From assembly GCF_004014775.2 (NCBI RefSeq), contig NZ_CP042808.1:186001-250000 (forward strand): 64,000 nt of DNA, in the 5' to 3' direction. The position numbers and the translations under genes are program-made. How positions within the stretch are numbered: the stretch's first letter is position 1; the number at the start of each line of letters is the position of its first letter. The DNA is from Acetobacter oryzoeni. Its GTDB lineage: Bacteria > Pseudomonadota > Alphaproteobacteria > Acetobacterales > Acetobacteraceae. Of the stretch, positions 14,083 through 47,416 are shown piece by piece. Below the pieces are notes generated by a model, which saw nothing but the letters and a program-made list of their open reading frames with translations, was not told where the DNA came from and did not search any database.

Positions 14083-15411
14083 TCAGGCAGAACGTTTGGT
14101 ATCCACGTTTTGATGATTGATCAAAAAGGGACCTGCTGCACGAAGAGTGATAGACAGGGTGCCAATATTGCCGGGAGAGAGATAGCCCTCCAAAGGGAGT
14201 TCAGCGTTACCATTGGTCCATGCACAATCAGTCCAATCGGTATCATGCCAACCATCTGGCTTTTGGGCCTGAAGGTGAGCCGTGATTTTATGTTGTTGTT
14301 GTGCCGACAGCAGAAGCACATCGCTCACAGCAACACCCATCAGACGACGGTCATCTACAAATGGCCCAATGACGTCTGCTGGACGGTTGGCACGCGAAAC
14401 AATGCGTACGGAATGTGTATTGACTGGCAGCATGAAGTTGTAGCGCTGCCCATCCTGCCGGATAGGGCGGAGCATGGTTCCGTTGTCTGTTATGAGATGC
14501 AGATAAGGATTATCTGTGCGTTCAGAAGATGTTATGGGCGTTTCGGAAAAATTATTGCGTGCTGCTAGTTTGTGGAACAAGGGTTCAACAAAAGCACGCT
14601 CCACGCATAAAGGTGCTGCGGCATCTTTTTCCCAATCGCGACGAGCACTACCAAAACGGATCACTGTTCCTTCCTGATGGAACACACGACGGTTGCCCGT
14701 ATCCAGATAACTTTCTGTCAACATGCCATCAGCAGTTATGACAGAGTGCTGCGCAGTTTCCACGTGGTAGTAATCGTAAGAAGTGATGGATTTATCGTAA
14801 AAAATGGAAACTCCATTTACCAGCATACGCACGGGTACAAATTTACCATCAAAGAACAAGCAGTGTTCGGCAGTAATCAGCATATCCTTATAAGGTACGC
14901 CATCTGCAATGGCATTTTTGCACACACGTACAGGATACCCAGCTTCATCATCAGGTAGATGAGAGCGAACGCAGCATTGAGCTTTTCCTACCCATACCAC
15001 TGGGCGTGTGATTTTCTGTTGGGTGTTGCTGTCATAGGCAATAACTTCATCACCAGTCAGAAGATTTTCGACAGCAACATCTCCTTTAGGCGTACGGATC
15101 ATACTTCCACGCAAGAAGCAGACCTCGTAAATCAGGTTGCCATCATCGCCAACAACTAGGGCATTACCGTGCTTCGATACACCATCAATAGTTAAACCTA
15201 TGGAGTGGCCATTTTTCAGGTTAATCCATACTTTATTAGTATCATTGGCATCATAGGTTACGTTTTTGACATCTCCCTCTTTTATGCCGTCCAGCACAAT
15301 GCCATCTGAATCTCCACCAGATGTGCCGTTAAAACCAGAAATAACAGTACTGACAATGCCGCCTTCTGCCAGCCCAGAGATAATCAGGCCGGTATTTGTA
15401 TCACCATCCAT
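14083..15411 (-). CDS. Hint-domain C-terminal part of a strand-loop-strand protein (separated by a frameshift)
   Basis: 442 residues from the first ATG, but the same frame is open further upstream (to at least 15565) and encodes more repeats, so this is the 3' half of one gene with 15537-17231. After the last repeats comes a Hint_2-type (hedgehog/intein-like) domain starting CFLRGSMIRTPKGDVAVENL about 100 residues in: a nucleophile-type Cys followed by the GD-V block, then ITAEHCLFFDGKFVPVRMLVNG. A further domain of about 200 residues with beta-rich character follows and ends without a membrane barrel. Hint domains can self-cleave or ligate; activity here is unknown. A terminator follows 24 bases after the stop. 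Confidence 0.8.
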   Translation of the reverse strand: MDGDTNTGLIISGLAEGGIVSTVISGFNGTSGGDSDGIVLDGIKEGDVKNVTYDANDTNKVWINLKNGHSIGLTIDGVSKHGNALVVGDDGNLIYEVCFLRGSMIRTPKGDVAVENLLTGDEVIAYDSNTQQKITRPVVWVGKAQCCVRSHLPDDEAGYPVRVCKNAIADGVPYKDMLITAEHCLFFDGKFVPVRMLVNGVSIFYDKSITSYDYYHVETAQHSVITADGMLTESYLDTGNRRVFHQEGTVIRFGSARRDWEKDAAAPLCVERAFVEPLFHKLAARNNFSETPITSSERTDNPYLHLITDNGTMLRPIRQDGQRYNFMLPVNTHSVRIVSRANRPADVIGPFVDDRRLMGVAVSDVLLLSAQQQHKITAHLQAQKPDGWHDTDWTDCAWTNGNAELPLEGYLSPGNIGTLSITLRAAGPFLINHQNVDTKRSA

Positions 15412-15536
15412 AACAATGGTGCCGCCAGCATTGGAATAAATGGATACTGTGCCGCCATTCTGCAGAGTTACGGTGCCACTGAGTGTGCCGCTATTTTGAA
15501 CATTGAGTGATGCACCATTTTGAATTGTTGCATCAC

Positions 15537-17231
15537 TTAAAATGCCTTGACCATCAACGGTAATGGCCCCACATTTTCAGCAGTAGGATTGATAATTGTA
15601 GCGCCTGCATTGGCGTATTCATTACCTCCATCACTTATAATGGCATTAAGAGAGCTTCCACCCGCAGAAACAGCTTCAAAGGCATTTGTGCCGCGTATAA
15701 CTGTATTGTTTGTTGTGGCACCATCATAAACAACCAAATTGCCATTTGCGTTAATTATCGTGCTTGTTAAAGTTGCATTAGAAGCAAAGCCATAACCATT
15801 GCTATTGAACGTAACGTTCTGAATTGTTCCGCCTGTGGCGCTTAAAGTACTTCCATCCTGAAAAGATGCGCTTGTAAGTGTACCACCAAAAACGTTTATC
15901 CCCCCATTTCCATCTGCAAGATTGCTTCCGCTGCCGGTAATATCCGTAGCAGAGCCACCATCAGAAAGATTTATAAAACCTCCTGTGTTGATATGCAGGG
16001 CAGAAACAGTGCCGCCAGAAACATCAAAACCGCCGCCATTATCAGCATTTATATTGGTAACACGCCCACCAAAAACGGTTATGATCCCGCTTTGTATGGA
16101 GCCATTAGCCATTGCTCCGTTATCATAAACTGTTGCATAGCCACTGATAATTTTAGTACCACTGGCAACACCACCACCCGATACAATGATATTTGCATTT
16201 GATGTTAAAATTTGAGCAGAAATACTGCTGCCGCCATTGTCTACATACTCTGTGCCGCCGCTTGAAACGATATCAGAAGTTGCAGTGCCACCAGCAGAAA
16301 TATGAACATATCCCCCGCTTGCTAGCGTTGCAGAGGTTAAACTGCCACCGTTATTAACAATAATGCCGCCACTGCCATCTGTTGCGCTTACAACTGTAGC
16401 ACTGCCGCCAGATAGATTGATAATACCACTTTGAACTGTTGTATCTGTAAGTGTAGCGCTGGCAAAAACATTTACGGCACCAGCAGAAAGAATTGTGTCT
16501 GATGCAGTGCCAGCGGAAAGATTCAGCGTGGCATCAGGTTCTTTCAGGGTGGCAGATATACTGGTGCCACCACTGTAAACATCCATATTGCTGTTGGCGC
16601 CAATAAAGCTTTGTTGTGCTGTGCCGCCGCCCGAAACTTGAATATTTCCGCCCGATATGGCGCTGATAACAGAAACTGTTACACCGCGTTCAATCTGAAG
16701 GGTTCCGCCACTTGTGACGGTAGCGCTCGTGACCTGGCCGCCCGAAACGTCAACGAATGTACCTGAATCCGTAATTCCAATGCTCGTTAACGTGGCGCCA
16801 TCATATACACCTACCCAACCACCGTCTTTATCGGTCCAATTTGCACCACTTCCGCCTGCACTCAGGTAGGCGTGAGCCCCACTTCCTGAAAGGGTGAGAT
16901 TATTGGCTGTTCCCCAAACAGTTTCCTGCCCATTTACACCAATAGTATCGTTATCGCTTATGCCGCCAGAGGAAACGAGGATATTCCCGCCGGCGGTTGC
17001 TGATGTAAAAGAAACGTCTCCAACAGTCTCAAGCGTGCCGCCAGAAATTAACGAGCTGGTGGCAGACCCATTATTGTAAACATGTATATATCCTCCCGCT
17101 TCAGCAGTCACACCATTGGCTGTGCCTCCTGAGCTTACAAAAAGGCCCACACCATTTATAACGGTTCCGCCATTTTGCTCGGTGCTGCTGCTATCGCCAC
17201 CAATAGTAGTATTTTGAGAAATATCAGACAT
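15537..17231 (-). CDS. Strand-loop-strand (AIDA/TibA-type) repeat protein, N-terminal part; frameshifted before its Hint domain
   Basis: 564 residues made almost entirely of repeats of roughly 20 residues with the pattern GG-T----V-SGG---V--GG, the heptosylation-substrate repeats of AIDA-I/TibA passenger domains. The N-terminus MSDISQNTTIGGDSSST is polar: there is no Sec or Tat signal. The frame ends in an unrelated tail after NVGPLPLMVKAF. One extra base in the C4 run at 15567-15570 (plus strand) restores NVGAITVDGQG and joins the frame to the Hint half, giving about 1049 residues in total. It starts five bases after the heptosyltransferase stop, so the two are one operon. It is probably an exported, glycosylated adhesin or matrix protein (inference). 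Confidence 0.82.
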   Translation of the reverse strand: MSDISQNTTIGGDSSSTEQNGGTVINGVGLFVSSGGTANGVTAEAGGYIHVYNNGSATSSLISGGTLETVGDVSFTSATAGGNILVSSGGISDNDTIGVNGQETVWGTANNLTLSGSGAHAYLSAGGSGANWTDKDGGWVGVYDGATLTSIGITDSGTFVDVSGGQVTSATVTSGGTLQIERGVTVSVISAISGGNIQVSGGGTAQQSFIGANSNMDVYSGGTSISATLKEPDATLNLSAGTASDTILSAGAVNVFASATLTDTTVQSGIINLSGGSATVVSATDGSGGIIVNNGGSLTSATLASGGYVHISAGGTATSDIVSSGGTEYVDNGGSSISAQILTSNANIIVSGGGVASGTKIISGYATVYDNGAMANGSIQSGIITVFGGRVTNINADNGGGFDVSGGTVSALHINTGGFINLSDGGSATDITGSGSNLADGNGGINVFGGTLTSASFQDGSTLSATGGTIQNVTFNSNGYGFASNATLTSTIINANGNLVVYDGATTNNTVIRGTNAFEAVSAGGSSLNAIISDGGNEYANAGATIINPTAENVGPLPLMVKAF

Positions 17232-17236
17232 GGTTT

Positions 17237-18508
17237 TTATCTTTTATGAGCAAGAGGTTTTATTGTTTCAATGACCTGCTGGGCCGTAATAAGCCGCGTA
17301 CATTCAAACTGGCGTGGTGTATTGGCATGCCGCGGACACCACAGGAAATCGTGATGATCAAATCGCTCTTTCGGATCATTCCAGCAGGAATTGCAGGTGT
17401 GCCAGTTAATGACACGGAAAGGCGTTTCAAATTCGGTTGTGGGATGACTAAAGCCCGCAATCATCACCACAGGGGTTCCGGTTGACCATGCCAACCAAGA
17501 TAAGCCAGAGCCTAACCCGATAAAAAAGTCTGCATGTTTTAGCCAGCGCGCTCGTTCTGTTAGCGGGCGGCTGCCGGTTTGGTCTTCTGCGCCATAAGGA
17601 ATGTGGTTCCAGACAATGCCAGTGCCATGTACGGTTTTTTGATCAATGCAGATCACCCGGTATCCCTGGGCTTTAAGCCATTTGATAACTTCGTCCCATC
17701 CTGTTGGATTGTTCCAGTATTTGCATTGCGATGAAGCTTGGGCCGCAATACAGACATAGGGTTCCTTAATGGGGCGTCCTTCATCTGAAAAACTGATTTT
17801 TGCTGGCTCCTCCTTGGGGTTTACGCCCAAAATATATGCTGCGGTCTTATGGAGCCCGACCAAGCGGAAGTCAGAAGGTTGCCAGTCACACGTTGCGTCA
17901 TCAAAAAAGAGGCCTAGGTAATAAGTTGCGTAGGCCTGATCTGTTAGTTTTTGGGCCCGCACATCATCATGCGTCACAAAATTGATGTGAGGGTAAGCAT
18001 CCTTAAATAATGGAATCAGAAGTTCGGACATGGCGCATGTCACTTGTGCTTGTCGCACCTCAGCAAAGCGTGCTGCATACGGCATCCATGCCAATGTATC
18101 TCCCAATGTTCCAACAGGAAATACGATGAGTACCTGCTTATCTTTTGAATCGTAAGCGTAGGAGAAAACCTGCGTACTGGTAGTTTTTCCGTCTTCTGCT
18201 TTAGAATCCTGCCAAATGGTGATGCCAAATCGTACATACCAACGTTTGGATGAGCGCACGAGAGCTTGGTTTAATCCTGCCTGTGCAAATAAAATATTTC
18301 CGGTATCCAAATCTGTGAGCTCAATACGCCACGTACCTTCAGCTTCTTCCAGTAAAGGGAGATGGACCCGACATCCTTCATTAAAATCAAACCGAATATT
18401 CTTTGGAGCCTGCTGTGTAGGCAATGCTGCGGCTGTGGGATATGGAGGCGCTTGCGTTGTTTGCGACTGATTAGTTGAATTACTTGTTGTGTTTGGTTGA
18501 TTGTTCAT
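17237..18508 (-). CDS. Autotransporter strand-loop-strand O-heptosyltransferase (TibC/BAHT family)
   Basis: 423 residues. It transfers heptose from an ADP-heptose donor to Ser/Thr in strand-loop-strand repeats, in the cytoplasm. Residues 1-36 are a low-complexity N/T/Q/P tail. Next comes a family-specific N-terminal domain (FDFNEGCRVHL, WYVRFGITIW). The GT-B catalytic part follows (VFPVGTLGDTLAWMPYAARF, IAAQASSQCKYW, DFFIGLGSGLSWLAWSTGTPVVMI). A C-terminal iron-finger has Cys at 372, 375, 391 and 403, spacing C-x2-C-x15-C-x11-C as known for TibC. It is the first gene of the operon with the repeat protein. The start is the ATG at 18508, with GGTGG about ten bases before it. Confidence 0.93.
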   Translation of the reverse strand: MNNQPNTTSNSTNQSQTTQAPPYPTAAALPTQQAPKNIRFDFNEGCRVHLPLLEEAEGTWRIELTDLDTGNILFAQAGLNQALVRSSKRWYVRFGITIWQDSKAEDGKTTSTQVFSYAYDSKDKQVLIVFPVGTLGDTLAWMPYAARFAEVRQAQVTCAMSELLIPLFKDAYPHINFVTHDDVRAQKLTDQAYATYYLGLFFDDATCDWQPSDFRLVGLHKTAAYILGVNPKEEPAKISFSDEGRPIKEPYVCIAAQASSQCKYWNNPTGWDEVIKWLKAQGYRVICIDQKTVHGTGIVWNHIPYGAEDQTGSRPLTERARWLKHADFFIGLGSGLSWLAWSTGTPVVMIAGFSHPTTEFETPFRVINWHTCNSCWNDPKERFDHHDFLWCPRHANTPRQFECTRLITAQQVIETIKPLAHKR

Positions 18509-19264: not shown

Positions 19265-20080
19265 ATGACACCAGTAATGCCTCGAGTAGCTGTAATGACC
19301 AAAGCTTATCAAGAGCGCACTATGCTGCCTCTTTGGGTAAGGCATTATGAAAAGTTAGTTGGTCGTGAAAATCTCCTGGTGCTCGATCATGGCAGCAGTC
19401 CTGCTATCAGCATTGGCGGTGTACGTACTGAGCGTTTACCTCGTGGCCAAGTTGATGAGTATGACTATATCGAGATATTATCAGTTTGGCAGCGCAAACT
19501 GCTTTCTGAATATGACTGGGTTATCACGACAGACACGGACGAATTTATCGTTCCTAACCCACAACTCTTTTCGAGCCTCACCGCAATGCTACGGGATACC
19601 CCGTCTGGGACGCGTCGCTGTGTAGGCTGCGAAGTAATTGATCCTGGTAATCCCACTCAGCCACTTGATTGGTCTTTACCAATTTTGCGTCAGAGACCGC
19701 TAGGTGTCTTGTCAAAATGGTCTTCTAAGCCCGCCGTTTCTTCTGTTCCAACTGACTGGATGCCAGGCCTTCATACGGCACATACACCATCGATCTTTGA
19801 TCATGCTCTATGGCTATTTCATCTAAAATACGCCGATGAACAGTATCTTATGGAACGGCTAGCACTCACTCGTGCACTAGACTGGAGTGCCAGATCAGTA
19901 GCAGAAGGTTTGGGAGGATCTCATCGAGTGCCAGACATAGCCATGCGTCGTGCCATGGAGCATTATCGATCAACTATAGCGCCGGGAACTCTTGATGATG
20001 TTTTGAGCAAACAATCAGATCCCGATACGCTTACTTCTCCAATGATGGCAATTCCCGATGTTTTTCTTGATTGTCTTTAA
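19265..20080 (+). CDS. Glycosyltransferase family 2-like protein
   Basis: 271 residues. The N-terminus PRVAVMTKAYQERTMLPLWVRHYEKLVG, then LLVLDHGSS and the DxD-type motif ITTDTDEFIVP (about residue 90), fit the Glyco_tranf_2_4 type of GT-A enzymes, which act from the cytoplasm on an unknown acceptor. There is no signal peptide or membrane segment. No good Shine-Dalgarno precedes the ATG at 19265; the ATG four codons later is an alternative. It sits alone between the IS remnant and the broken integrase. It could modify the same surface protein or a surface polysaccharide, but nothing in the sequence decides this. Confidence 0.8.
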   Translation: MTPVMPRVAVMTKAYQERTMLPLWVRHYEKLVGRENLLVLDHGSSPAISIGGVRTERLPRGQVDEYDYIEILSVWQRKLLSEYDWVITTDTDEFIVPNPQLFSSLTAMLRDTPSGTRRCVGCEVIDPGNPTQPLDWSLPILRQRPLGVLSKWSSKPAVSSVPTDWMPGLHTAHTPSIFDHALWLFHLKYADEQYLMERLALTRALDWSARSVAEGLGGSHRVPDIAMRRAMEHYRSTIAPGTLDDVLSKQSDPDTLTSPMMAIPDVFLDCL

Positions 20081-26385: not shown

Positions 26386-27297
26386 ATGCCCCTTCTGCGC
26401 ACCCTGATACGAGTTGTTCTGACCCTTGCGGTCGTCTCACTGGCCATCGTTCTGGGGATTACCCTGTGGAACGTGTATATGATTGCACCCTGGACCCGAG
26501 ATGGCCGTGTGCGTGTGTACGTTGTGGACGTGGCACCTGAAGTTTCCGGCACCGTGGTGCAGATTCCCATCGTGGATAACCAGTTCGTGCATAAGGGTGA
26601 CCCCCTGTTTGTGCTCGATCCGGTGCGTTTCCGTCTTGCTATCCGTGAGGCACAGGCCCGGCTTGACGGTGCTTTGGAAGATTTGAAGCTGAAACGCAAC
26701 GATGCCCGCCGCCGTATGGGCTTGGGTGGCATTGTGTCGGCCGAAGAACAGGAAGTCTTTAACTCTAATGTGGCAACGCAGATTGCATCTGTTGATGCCG
26801 CACGCGCTGCCTTGGATGTGGCTAAACTGAACTTGCAGCGTTCGGTTCTGTATTCTCCGGTAAATGGCTACATCACTAACCTGAACTTGCGAGTGGGTGA
26901 TTACGCGTCTGCCGGGCAGGCCCGTATGGCCGTTATCGATTCCGACTCCTACTGGGTTTACGGGTATTTCGAAGAAACAAAGATGTGGGGCGTGCACGTG
27001 GGTGATGAAGCCCGCGTTAAGCTGATGGGCTACAAGCCTATTCTTACAGGCCACGTTGTCAGCATTGCGCGCGGTATTAATGATACCAACGGCACACCAG
27101 ATAAACTTGGGCTGCAGGATGTGAACCCGATCTTTACCTGGGTGCGTCTGGCGCAGCGTATTCCTGTGCGTATTCACATTGACCATGTGCCCGATAGTGT
27201 CACGCTGGCGGCAGGCATGACGGCAACTGTCAGCGTAGGCCCTGAACCCAGAGGCCGCCGCGGAAAGTTGACGACCTGGCTGCAAGATCATCTGTAA
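26386..27297 (+). CDS. HlyD-family efflux adaptor (AaeA/EmrA-like)
   Basis: 303 residues. It has one N-terminal membrane anchor (VVLTLAVVSLAIVLGITLW), the lipoyl motif (VYVVDVAPEVSGTVVQIPIVDNQ), a short alpha-hairpin and YSPVNGYITNLNLRVGDYAS. It is a periplasmic adaptor that would connect an inner-membrane pump to the outer-membrane channel encoded ten bases downstream. It is likely used for aromatic acid efflux as in the aae system (inference). Confidence 0.93.
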   Translation: MPLLRTLIRVVLTLAVVSLAIVLGITLWNVYMIAPWTRDGRVRVYVVDVAPEVSGTVVQIPIVDNQFVHKGDPLFVLDPVRFRLAIREAQARLDGALEDLKLKRNDARRRMGLGGIVSAEEQEVFNSNVATQIASVDAARAALDVAKLNLQRSVLYSPVNGYITNLNLRVGDYASAGQARMAVIDSDSYWVYGYFEETKMWGVHVGDEARVKLMGYKPILTGHVVSIARGINDTNGTPDKLGLQDVNPIFTWVRLAQRIPVRIHIDHVPDSVTLAAGMTATVSVGPEPRGRRGKLTTWLQDHL

Positions 27298-45656: not shown

Positions 45657-45736
45657 GGCGATAACAGCTTGCTGCGCCGATGTGGTCGCACCCGCCAGTT
45701 TTATCTTACCCATCCGCATTACGGGAGTTCATTATC

Positions 45737-47416
45737 ATGGCATCCTATCAATACGTTTATGTCATGAAGGATCTGACAAAGTCCTATCCCGGCGGGCGTG
45801 AAGTGTTCAAAGGCATCACGCTGTCCTTCATGCCGGGTGCCAAAATTGGCATTCTGGGTGTGAACGGTGCTGGTAAGTCTACCCTGCTGAAAATCATGGC
45901 TGGCATCGATAAGGAATTCGGTGGTGAGGCATGGGCCGCAGAAGGTGTGCGTGTTGGCTATCTGGAGCAGGAACCGCAGCTAGACCCCAAGCTGACCGTG
46001 GGTGAGAACGTGGCTCTGGGCTTTGGTGATCTCAAAAAGGCCGTAGATCGGTTTAACGAGATTTCCGCCCGCTTTGCCGAACCCATGGAAGATGAGGAAA
46101 TGAATGCCCTGCTGGCCGAACAGGCCGAATTGCAGGAAAAGATTGATGCCGGTGATGGCTGGGAGCTGGACCGCAAGCTGGATATTGCGCTGGACGCCCT
46201 ACGCTGCCCGCCGGCAGATAGCCCGGTCGATAAGCTTTCCGGTGGTGAGCGCCGCCGCGTGGCCCTGTGCCGCCTGTTGCTGGAAAAGCCCGATCTGCTG
46301 CTGTTGGACGAACCCACCAACCATCTGGATGCTGAAAGTGTTGCGTGGCTTGAACGCACGCTGAAGGATTACGATGGCACCGTGATGGTCATTACCCATG
46401 ACCGTTACTTCCTGGACAACGTGACCAACTGGATTCTGGAAATCGAGCGTGGCCGCGGTATTCCGTTCGAGGGTAACTATTCCTCCTGGCTGGAACAGAA
46501 GCGTAAGCGTCTGGCTCAGGAAGAAAAGGAAGAAAGTGCCCGCCAACGCGCATTGGCTGCGGAACAGGAATGGATTAACGCCAGCCCCAAAGCCCGGCAG
46601 ACCAAAAGCAAAGCCCGTATTACCAAATATGAGGAAATGCTGGCTGCTAGTGCTGAAAAAGTTAGCGGCGTGGCAGACATTGTTATTCCGCCTGGCCCAC
46701 GCCTTGGTGGCACTGTTATTGAAGCCGAAAACCTAACCAAGGGTTTTGGTGAGCGCCTGCTGATTGATAACCTCAACTTTAAGCTGCCACCGGGTGGCAT
46801 TGTGGGGGTTATTGGCCCGAACGGTGCTGGTAAATCCACCTTGTTCAAAATGATTATTGGGCAGGAAAAGCCAGATGCGGGTGATCTGAAGATTGGTGAA
46901 ACCGTCAAGCTTGGCTACGTAGACCAGTCTCGTGATGATCTCGATGCAGACAAAACCGTGTGGGAAGAAATTTCCGGCGGCACAGATGTGATCTATCTTG
47001 GCAAACGGGCTGTGCCTTCACGTGCCTATGTTGGGGCCTTTAACTTCAAAGGGTCTGACCAGCAGAAGAAGGTAGGCGTGCTTTCTGGTGGTGAGCGCAA
47101 CCGCGTGCATCTGGCCAAGATGCTCCGTCAGGAAAGCAACGTGATCCTGTTGGACGAACCGACCAACGATCTGGACGTAGATACTCTGCGTGCGTTGGAA
47201 GATGCACTGGCAGAATTTCCTGGTTGTGCTGTGGTCATCTCGCATGATCGCTGGTTCCTGGACCGTCTGGCAACGCATATTCTGGCCTTTGAAGGCGATT
47301 CCCACGTGGAATGGTTTGAAGGGAACTTCCAGGCATATGAAGAAGACAAGCGCCGTCGTCTGGGCCCGGAGGCTACAGAACCAGGCCGTATCCAGTACAA
47401 ACCTCTTGCGCGCTAA
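45737..47416 (+). CDS. ettA: Energy-dependent translational throttle EttA (ABC-F)
   Basis: 559 residues with two ABC cassettes. Walker A motifs are GVNGAGKST (about 38) and GPNGAGKST (about 365), signatures are [11 protein letters not shown] and [11 protein letters not shown], and Walker B motifs are [11 protein letters not shown] and [11 protein letters not shown]. The linker with [13 protein letters not shown] is the P-site tRNA-interaction motif. There is no membrane domain. It gates the first elongation step on the ribosome according to the ATP/ADP ratio. The ATG at 45737 (GGGAG before it) is preferred over the upstream in-frame ATG at 45680. Confidence 0.96.

Follow-up and report, generated by a model that had tools for sequence, protein, structure and literature searches.

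Protein O-heptosylation by enzymes of the BAHT family (TIGR04414) is known from autotransporter adhesins. The closest described systems are the enzyme/target pairs TibC/TibA and Aah/AIDA-I (PMC4358343). The locus described here lies in a stretch of 64,000 nucleotides (the window; G000:C1:186001-250000, in a genome of 3.15 Mb on four contigs). It shares with these systems the enzyme family TIGR04414, the iron finger, the catalytic residues and the strand-loop-strand repeats, and the enzyme gene is again placed directly upstream of that for its target. Unlike TibA and AIDA-I, the target in the window has no β-barrel and, by crude hydropathy, no apparent signal peptide, and it ends in a Hint_2 domain with a tail of about 204 residues. 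Judged from sequence, the combination of a heptosylation-type enzyme with an adjacent repeat-Hint target lacking an autotransporter barrel recurs in other genomes, and the main point of the earlier note on this DNA holds. Databases already label the pieces (TIGR04414, TIGR04415, 'Hint domain-containing protein' and, once, 'Adhesin/invasin TibA autotranspor...'); no paper on the pair was found in a literature search.

The putative protein O-heptosyltransferase of the window, referred to as HepT, scored 626.5 bits against TIGR04414 (cut-off 200). In Pfam, PF21129 (TibC_1st, 73.2 bits) and PF01075 were both above their cut-offs, and the TibC structures 4rap and 4rb4 matched HepT with E of about 2e-127. 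As the earlier note had claimed for a TibC-like O-heptosyltransferase, the iron finger C-x2-C-x15-C-x11-C is present with exact spacing, beginning at residue 372; the corresponding cysteines of TibC are Cys339/342/358/370 (PMC4358343). When relatives were collected as the best 80 of 216 HepT matches, from named genomes, the same spacing was observed in 79 of these 80, the exception (L032) ending at a contig end. HepT residues D137, K263, R319 and W338 are identical to D110, K230, R286 and W305 of TibC (catalytic base and donor-binding residues), and T226 of TibC is replaced by serine. Unlike TibC, in which the stereoselectivity residue is Pro300, HepT has Gly333 at this position; the roles of the residues compared are those given in PMC4358343. 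The closest named relative among the matches listed, near-identical records possibly being absent from them, is that of Acetobacter pasteurianus LMG 1262, with 91% identity. By these features HepT is a predicted member of the BAHT family and a complete enzyme of the TibC/Aah type. A GT2-like gene at 19265-20080, earlier suggested as a source of further sugars, is not part of the module: a search of the ORFs at the best 80 of 216 HepT loci yielded no homolog of it (E ≤ 1e-5).

Table 1. Features of the HepT/repeat-Hint locus (window positions)
Feature	Positions	Strand	Basis
Conserved C-terminal tail, about 204 aa; helical part, then β-rich domain	14086..14697	-	Conserved among paralogs
Hint_2 domain (Hedgehog/intein fold) with Cys1, TxxH and Ser at the intein terminal-Asn position	14698..15123	-	Pfam and alignment
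442-aa ORF: end of repeat part, Hint_2 and C-terminal tail	14083..15411	-	ORF list, Pfam; frame differs from that of 15537-17231
Strand-loop-strand (AIDA/TibA-like) repeat part of target, 564-aa ORF	15537..17231	-	TIGR04415; frame stops ahead of the Hint part
TibC/Aah-type protein O-heptosyltransferase (HepT), 423 aa; predicted function	17237..18508	-	TIGR04414, PF21129, PF01075, TibC structures

The repeat ORF begins five bases past the HepT stop, a spacing described before and verified on the sequence. It matched TIGR04415 in five stretches (34.3 bits; cut-off 30), and the AIDA/TibA-type strand-loop-strand repeats that had been described are thus present. A Hint_2 domain (PF13403, 114.8 bits; cut-off 28.4) and a further C-terminal region of 204 residues follow the repeats, also in agreement with the earlier description. 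The single repeat protein of about 1049 residues could not be upheld for the window, where the ORFs of 564 and 442 residues lie in different frames. When these were compared with the uninterrupted ortholog of A. pasteurianus LMG 1262 (1051 aa; L013:11278-14433), residues 1-552 of the latter aligned with the 564-residue ORF in a single frame (88% identity), and residues 555-1051 aligned with another frame of the window, that holding the 442-residue ORF (80% identity). As the repeat and Hint parts match the intact ortholog in different frames, a frame change at about 15.54-15.58 kb interrupts the target gene, and the protein of 1049 residues is therefore that of the unbroken gene and not of an ORF in the window sequence. 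The frame change may be a true mutation or a sequence error. A paralog of 1077 residues in the same genome (L104:10037-13270, equal to C3:106037-109270) is also uninterrupted, and its own intact HepT (L104:8760-10031) lies five bases upstream. Repeats and Hint in one chain are real in both intact copies.

We lean, with slightly better than even confidence, towards a protein O-heptosylation unit consisting of HepT and a repeat target that is not an autotransporter, with export that would not involve a barrel and with release or transfer through a Hint_2 thioester. The direct observations are the pairing and domain content of the genes, the conservation of catalytic residues, the lack of a barrel and, in this genome, target repeats on Hint_2 genes only. 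Heptose transfer by TibC-type enzymes takes place in the cytoplasm. By analogy with TibC, HepT would move heptose from ADP-heptose to Ser/Thr residues of the strand-loop-strand repeats before export; an HldE-type match, a gene of the ADP-heptose pathway, is present in the genome (rfaE domain I, 381.8 bits; cut-off 345). The repeat protein, having no barrel or apparent Sec signal, would be exported otherwise, most likely by type I secretion. The C-terminal Hint_2 would fold and form a thioester at the bond before Cys1, so that the heptosylated repeat part would be freed or passed to a surface nucleophile, with Hint and tail staying behind. The copy in the window is frame-broken; the intact one on C3 could carry the function.

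A different reading of the window locus, which we regard as a real possibility though short of probable, is that it is a decaying copy, in which the frame change is real, the repeat-Hint gene is a pseudogene and HepT serves other repeat-Hint proteins in trans. The separate frames of the two ORFs, the HepT remnants at C1:448525 and C3:938 (the former abutting a repeat-Hint gene) and the intact paralog on C3 with its own HepT all favour this. Both pieces nevertheless remain open outside the break, with 80-88% identity to the ortholog, as would fit a break of recent date or an error in the sequence. It may be noted that decay of this copy and a heptosylation unit of HepT and a repeat-Hint target can both hold.

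The target class is, as had been proposed, not a barrel-bearing autotransporter. Pfam detected no autotransporter barrel in the target pieces of the window. When 18 Hint partners from HepT loci of relatives were scanned, Hint_2 was found in 18, TIGR04415 in 15 and PF03797 in none (one of the 18, L018, ends at a contig end). The genome as a whole gave no PF03797 match, E. coli and Caulobacter controls being positive in the same search. A type Va (AIDA-type) autotransporter was rejected on these grounds, although passenger repeats are present: PF03797 is absent from the pieces, the 18 partners and the genome. No signal peptide was apparent by eye at the N-terminus of the repeat protein. Its crude hydropathy was 1.49, against 1.95 for a TonB receptor and 2.29 for an efflux protein used as controls; among 13 relatives, L073 (1.95) and L075 (1.78) were two overlapping a control.

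Type I secretion would be the most likely route for export of the repeat-Hint protein, co-occurrence speaking for it and gene linkage against it. Among 200 sampled Acetobacteraceae genomes, a type I ABC gene (E ≤ 1e-90) and Hint_2 were both present in 135, Hint_2 only in 21, the ABC gene only in 17 and neither in 27. The ABC gene was found in 55/55 genomes with HepT and in 97/145 without it. These co-occurrence statistics ignore descent and are confounded by it. Like type I secreted RTX proteins, the target has no apparent N-terminal signal, and RTX-like motifs were seen in 3 of the 12 Hint_2 ORFs read, from two genomes of another family (f23). Unlike RTX proteins, the window has no RTX family match in its ORFs (Pfam) and no ABC or HlyD genes beside the pair; only weak, distant ABC-like (45680-47416) and HlyD-like (26386-27297) ORFs are present.

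Exit of the protein by a path other than type I secretion (an unrecognised outer-membrane channel or lysis, for instance) seems rather doubtful. It agrees with the absence of a transporter gene from the locus, and with 20 conserved type I loci (20 kb each), at none of which was a Hint gene found among the ORFs kept. Against it, at least five Hint_2 copies occurred in 83 of the 152 genomes with the type I ABC gene and in 2 of the 48 without it, not corrected for descent (a copy number of 18 stands for at least 18). ABC and HlyD genes also lie at 5 of the best 80 of 216 HepT loci (L044, L059, L069, L071, L074). At L044, L069 and L071 the repeat protein carries target repeats without a barrel; at L059, where a contig end truncates it, it matched no family.

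In Acetobacteraceae the conserved type I loci share a block of five genes, for the type I ABC protein, HlyD, a protein with Sel1 repeats, a TPR glycosyltransferase (two GT domains) and a small ChW-like protein. All five were recognised at 11/20 loci and the glycosyltransferase at 19/20, some being hidden by ORF overlap filtering. The copy in the own genome is at L170:1-20000 (G000:C1:2534001-2554000), with 19 further loci in the family. C39-type ABC and HlyD genes lie near two closely similar Hint proteins (L142:7218-12715, L143:4498-13615); the second copy of this pair seems to be ringed by transposase-like ORFs.

The fold matches of Hint_2 were intein-like and Hedgehog domains; for the tail after it no confident fold match was obtained. 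In the Hint alignment (A3; 47 of 49 prepared rows used), catalytic residues were retained among relatives: Cys1 and the His of TxxH were each present in 46/47 sequences and the Thr/Ser in 47/47, the window having C, T and H. The tail alignment (A4) comprised 43 of 44 rows with tails of at least 170 aa, the Cys-less paralog being left out. At the position of the intein terminal Asn, 44 sequences have Ser and three have Thr; Asn occurs in 0/47. With Cys1 and His conserved and the terminal Asn absent from all 47, the predicted reaction is cleavage or transfer at the N-terminus rather than splicing. The missing Asn speaks against assignment as a splicing intein.

The domain differs from inteins in this position and has its own C-terminal tail, which may set it apart from BIL and Hedgehog autoprocessing domains. 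The pretoxin Hint of polymorphic toxins (PT-HINT) gave a weak match, of 21 bits, under its cut-off of 27.7. Unlike PT-HINT, the window Hint is preceded by a repeat region resembling an adhesin and has a tail conserved among paralogs, and no toxin domain was named by Pfam in the window ORFs.

It is unlikely that Hint_2 is a structural or sorting domain with the fold kept and no active self-cleavage. Consistent with inactivity, the terminal Asn is missing throughout, and Pro occupies the position before Cys1 (-1) in 9/47 sequences. Pro at this position would disfavour the N-S shift and speaks against cleavage in these nine at the least. The literature search gave no description of Hint_2 activity, and PMC11999647 lists a Hint domain protein without an assigned function. 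The near-complete retention of Cys1 and the TxxH His speaks against inactivity, as does the single paralog without Cys1 (C1:517065), which has also lost the TxxH His and three other conserved residues; such joint loss is expected if the residues are needed together.

In the own genome, Hint_2 is matched 21 times, and HepT is present as two full genes and two fragments. The Hint_2 genes encode between 37 and 889 residues ahead of the domain and a tail of 192-211 aa after it. TIGR04415 matched this genome 22 times (E ≤ 0.001), always within five intact Hint_2 genes or the broken one of the window, so that the known target repeats of the enzyme family are found only on Hint genes here. A HepT or HepT remnant lies within about 1.1 kb of four of the six repeat-bearing Hint_2 genes, compared with none of the 15 others (Fisher p 0.0025, in a test devised post hoc and with one HepT, on C3, serving two of the four). 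One remnant (L100:5528-5707), comprising about the last 54 codons of a HepT, abuts an intact repeat-Hint gene of 937 aa. This is the remnant on C1; the second is at G000:C3:938-1036.

In relatives, Hint domains were sought with a custom profile built on the 21 domains of the own genome (E ≤ 1e-6), and Pfam confirmed 18/18 of those scanned. The pairing recurs elsewhere: among the best 80 of 216 HepT loci, the ORF directly downstream of HepT carried Hint_2 at 19, including 16 of the 49 Acetobacteraceae-named loci, a name used in a broad sense that includes Acidisoma and Roseomonas. An alignment of partners (A1) was made from 17 of these 19 (without L015 and L026) and the own paralog. Ten other loci of the 80 stop at a contig end, four have a truncated partner and four have Hint elsewhere in the flank. 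A long downstream partner without Hint was found at 14/80 (0/49 Acetobacteraceae-named), and 29/80 (21/49) had neither Hint in the flank examined nor a long downstream partner. A scan of 25 Hint-less downstream ORFs, some clearly encoding unrelated enzymes, detected PF03797 in three, including L046 (Paraburkholderia).

In a tree of 82 HepT proteins, built by a quick method with no bootstrap, Hint pairing spans several HepT clades and needs at least five changes on starred branches; its clustering was matched by 0/500 shuffles. HepT was above its cut-off in 55 of the 200 sampled Acetobacteraceae genomes and Hint_2 was present in 156, that is, in 55/55 genomes with HepT and 101/145 others (not corrected for descent). 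In a sample of the class, Hint_2 was found in 7/190 genomes, three of them from the family of the window genome and five above the cut-off. It is very improbable that HepT modifies LPS or another protein and lies beside Hint by chance: the 29 loci just mentioned are in its favour, but the adjacency recurs in several lineages, and in the own genome the target repeats occur only on Hint genes and HepT genes and remnants adjoin only repeat-bearing ones.

A heptosylation unit of HepT and a repeat-Hint target would mean that surface proteins which do not use autotransport for their export may carry such a sugar coating as well. If true, the sugar code would be separable from the export route, a BAHT enzyme being tied to barrel-less targets in acetic acid bacteria. 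Hint_2 of Acetobacteraceae gains a concrete context, namely repeat proteins in which a Hedgehog-like processing domain is conserved. A bolder proposal, which we consider quite improbable, is that Hint_2 and its tail serve acetic acid bacteria as a C-terminal processing tag present in multiple copies, carried here by 21 dispersed proteins and read by one conserved type I secretion/glycosyltransferase locus. Among those that are heptosylated, the sugar-coated adhesin would be anchored covalently to a surface nucleophile through a Hedgehog-like thioester, in a bacterial counterpart of Hedgehog C-terminal modification.

Some further loci may be mentioned. In other Acetobacter clades, seven HepT loci (L048, L061, L063, L064, L042, L047, L051) have no Hint in the flanks examined, and their neighbourhoods are similar by ORF length only. 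Near HepT, L026:5491-8946, L031:6669-11456 and L052:1900-9819 combine AIDA repeats, Hint and a C-terminal GT4-type glycosyltransferase in one chain. A HepT gene occurs in a Solirubrobacterales (Actinomycetota) record (L070), perhaps through a binning error. Two Hint proteins labelled Lactiplantibacillus plantarum (P0050, P0051) are 67% identical to the window protein and perhaps reflect Acetobacter contamination.
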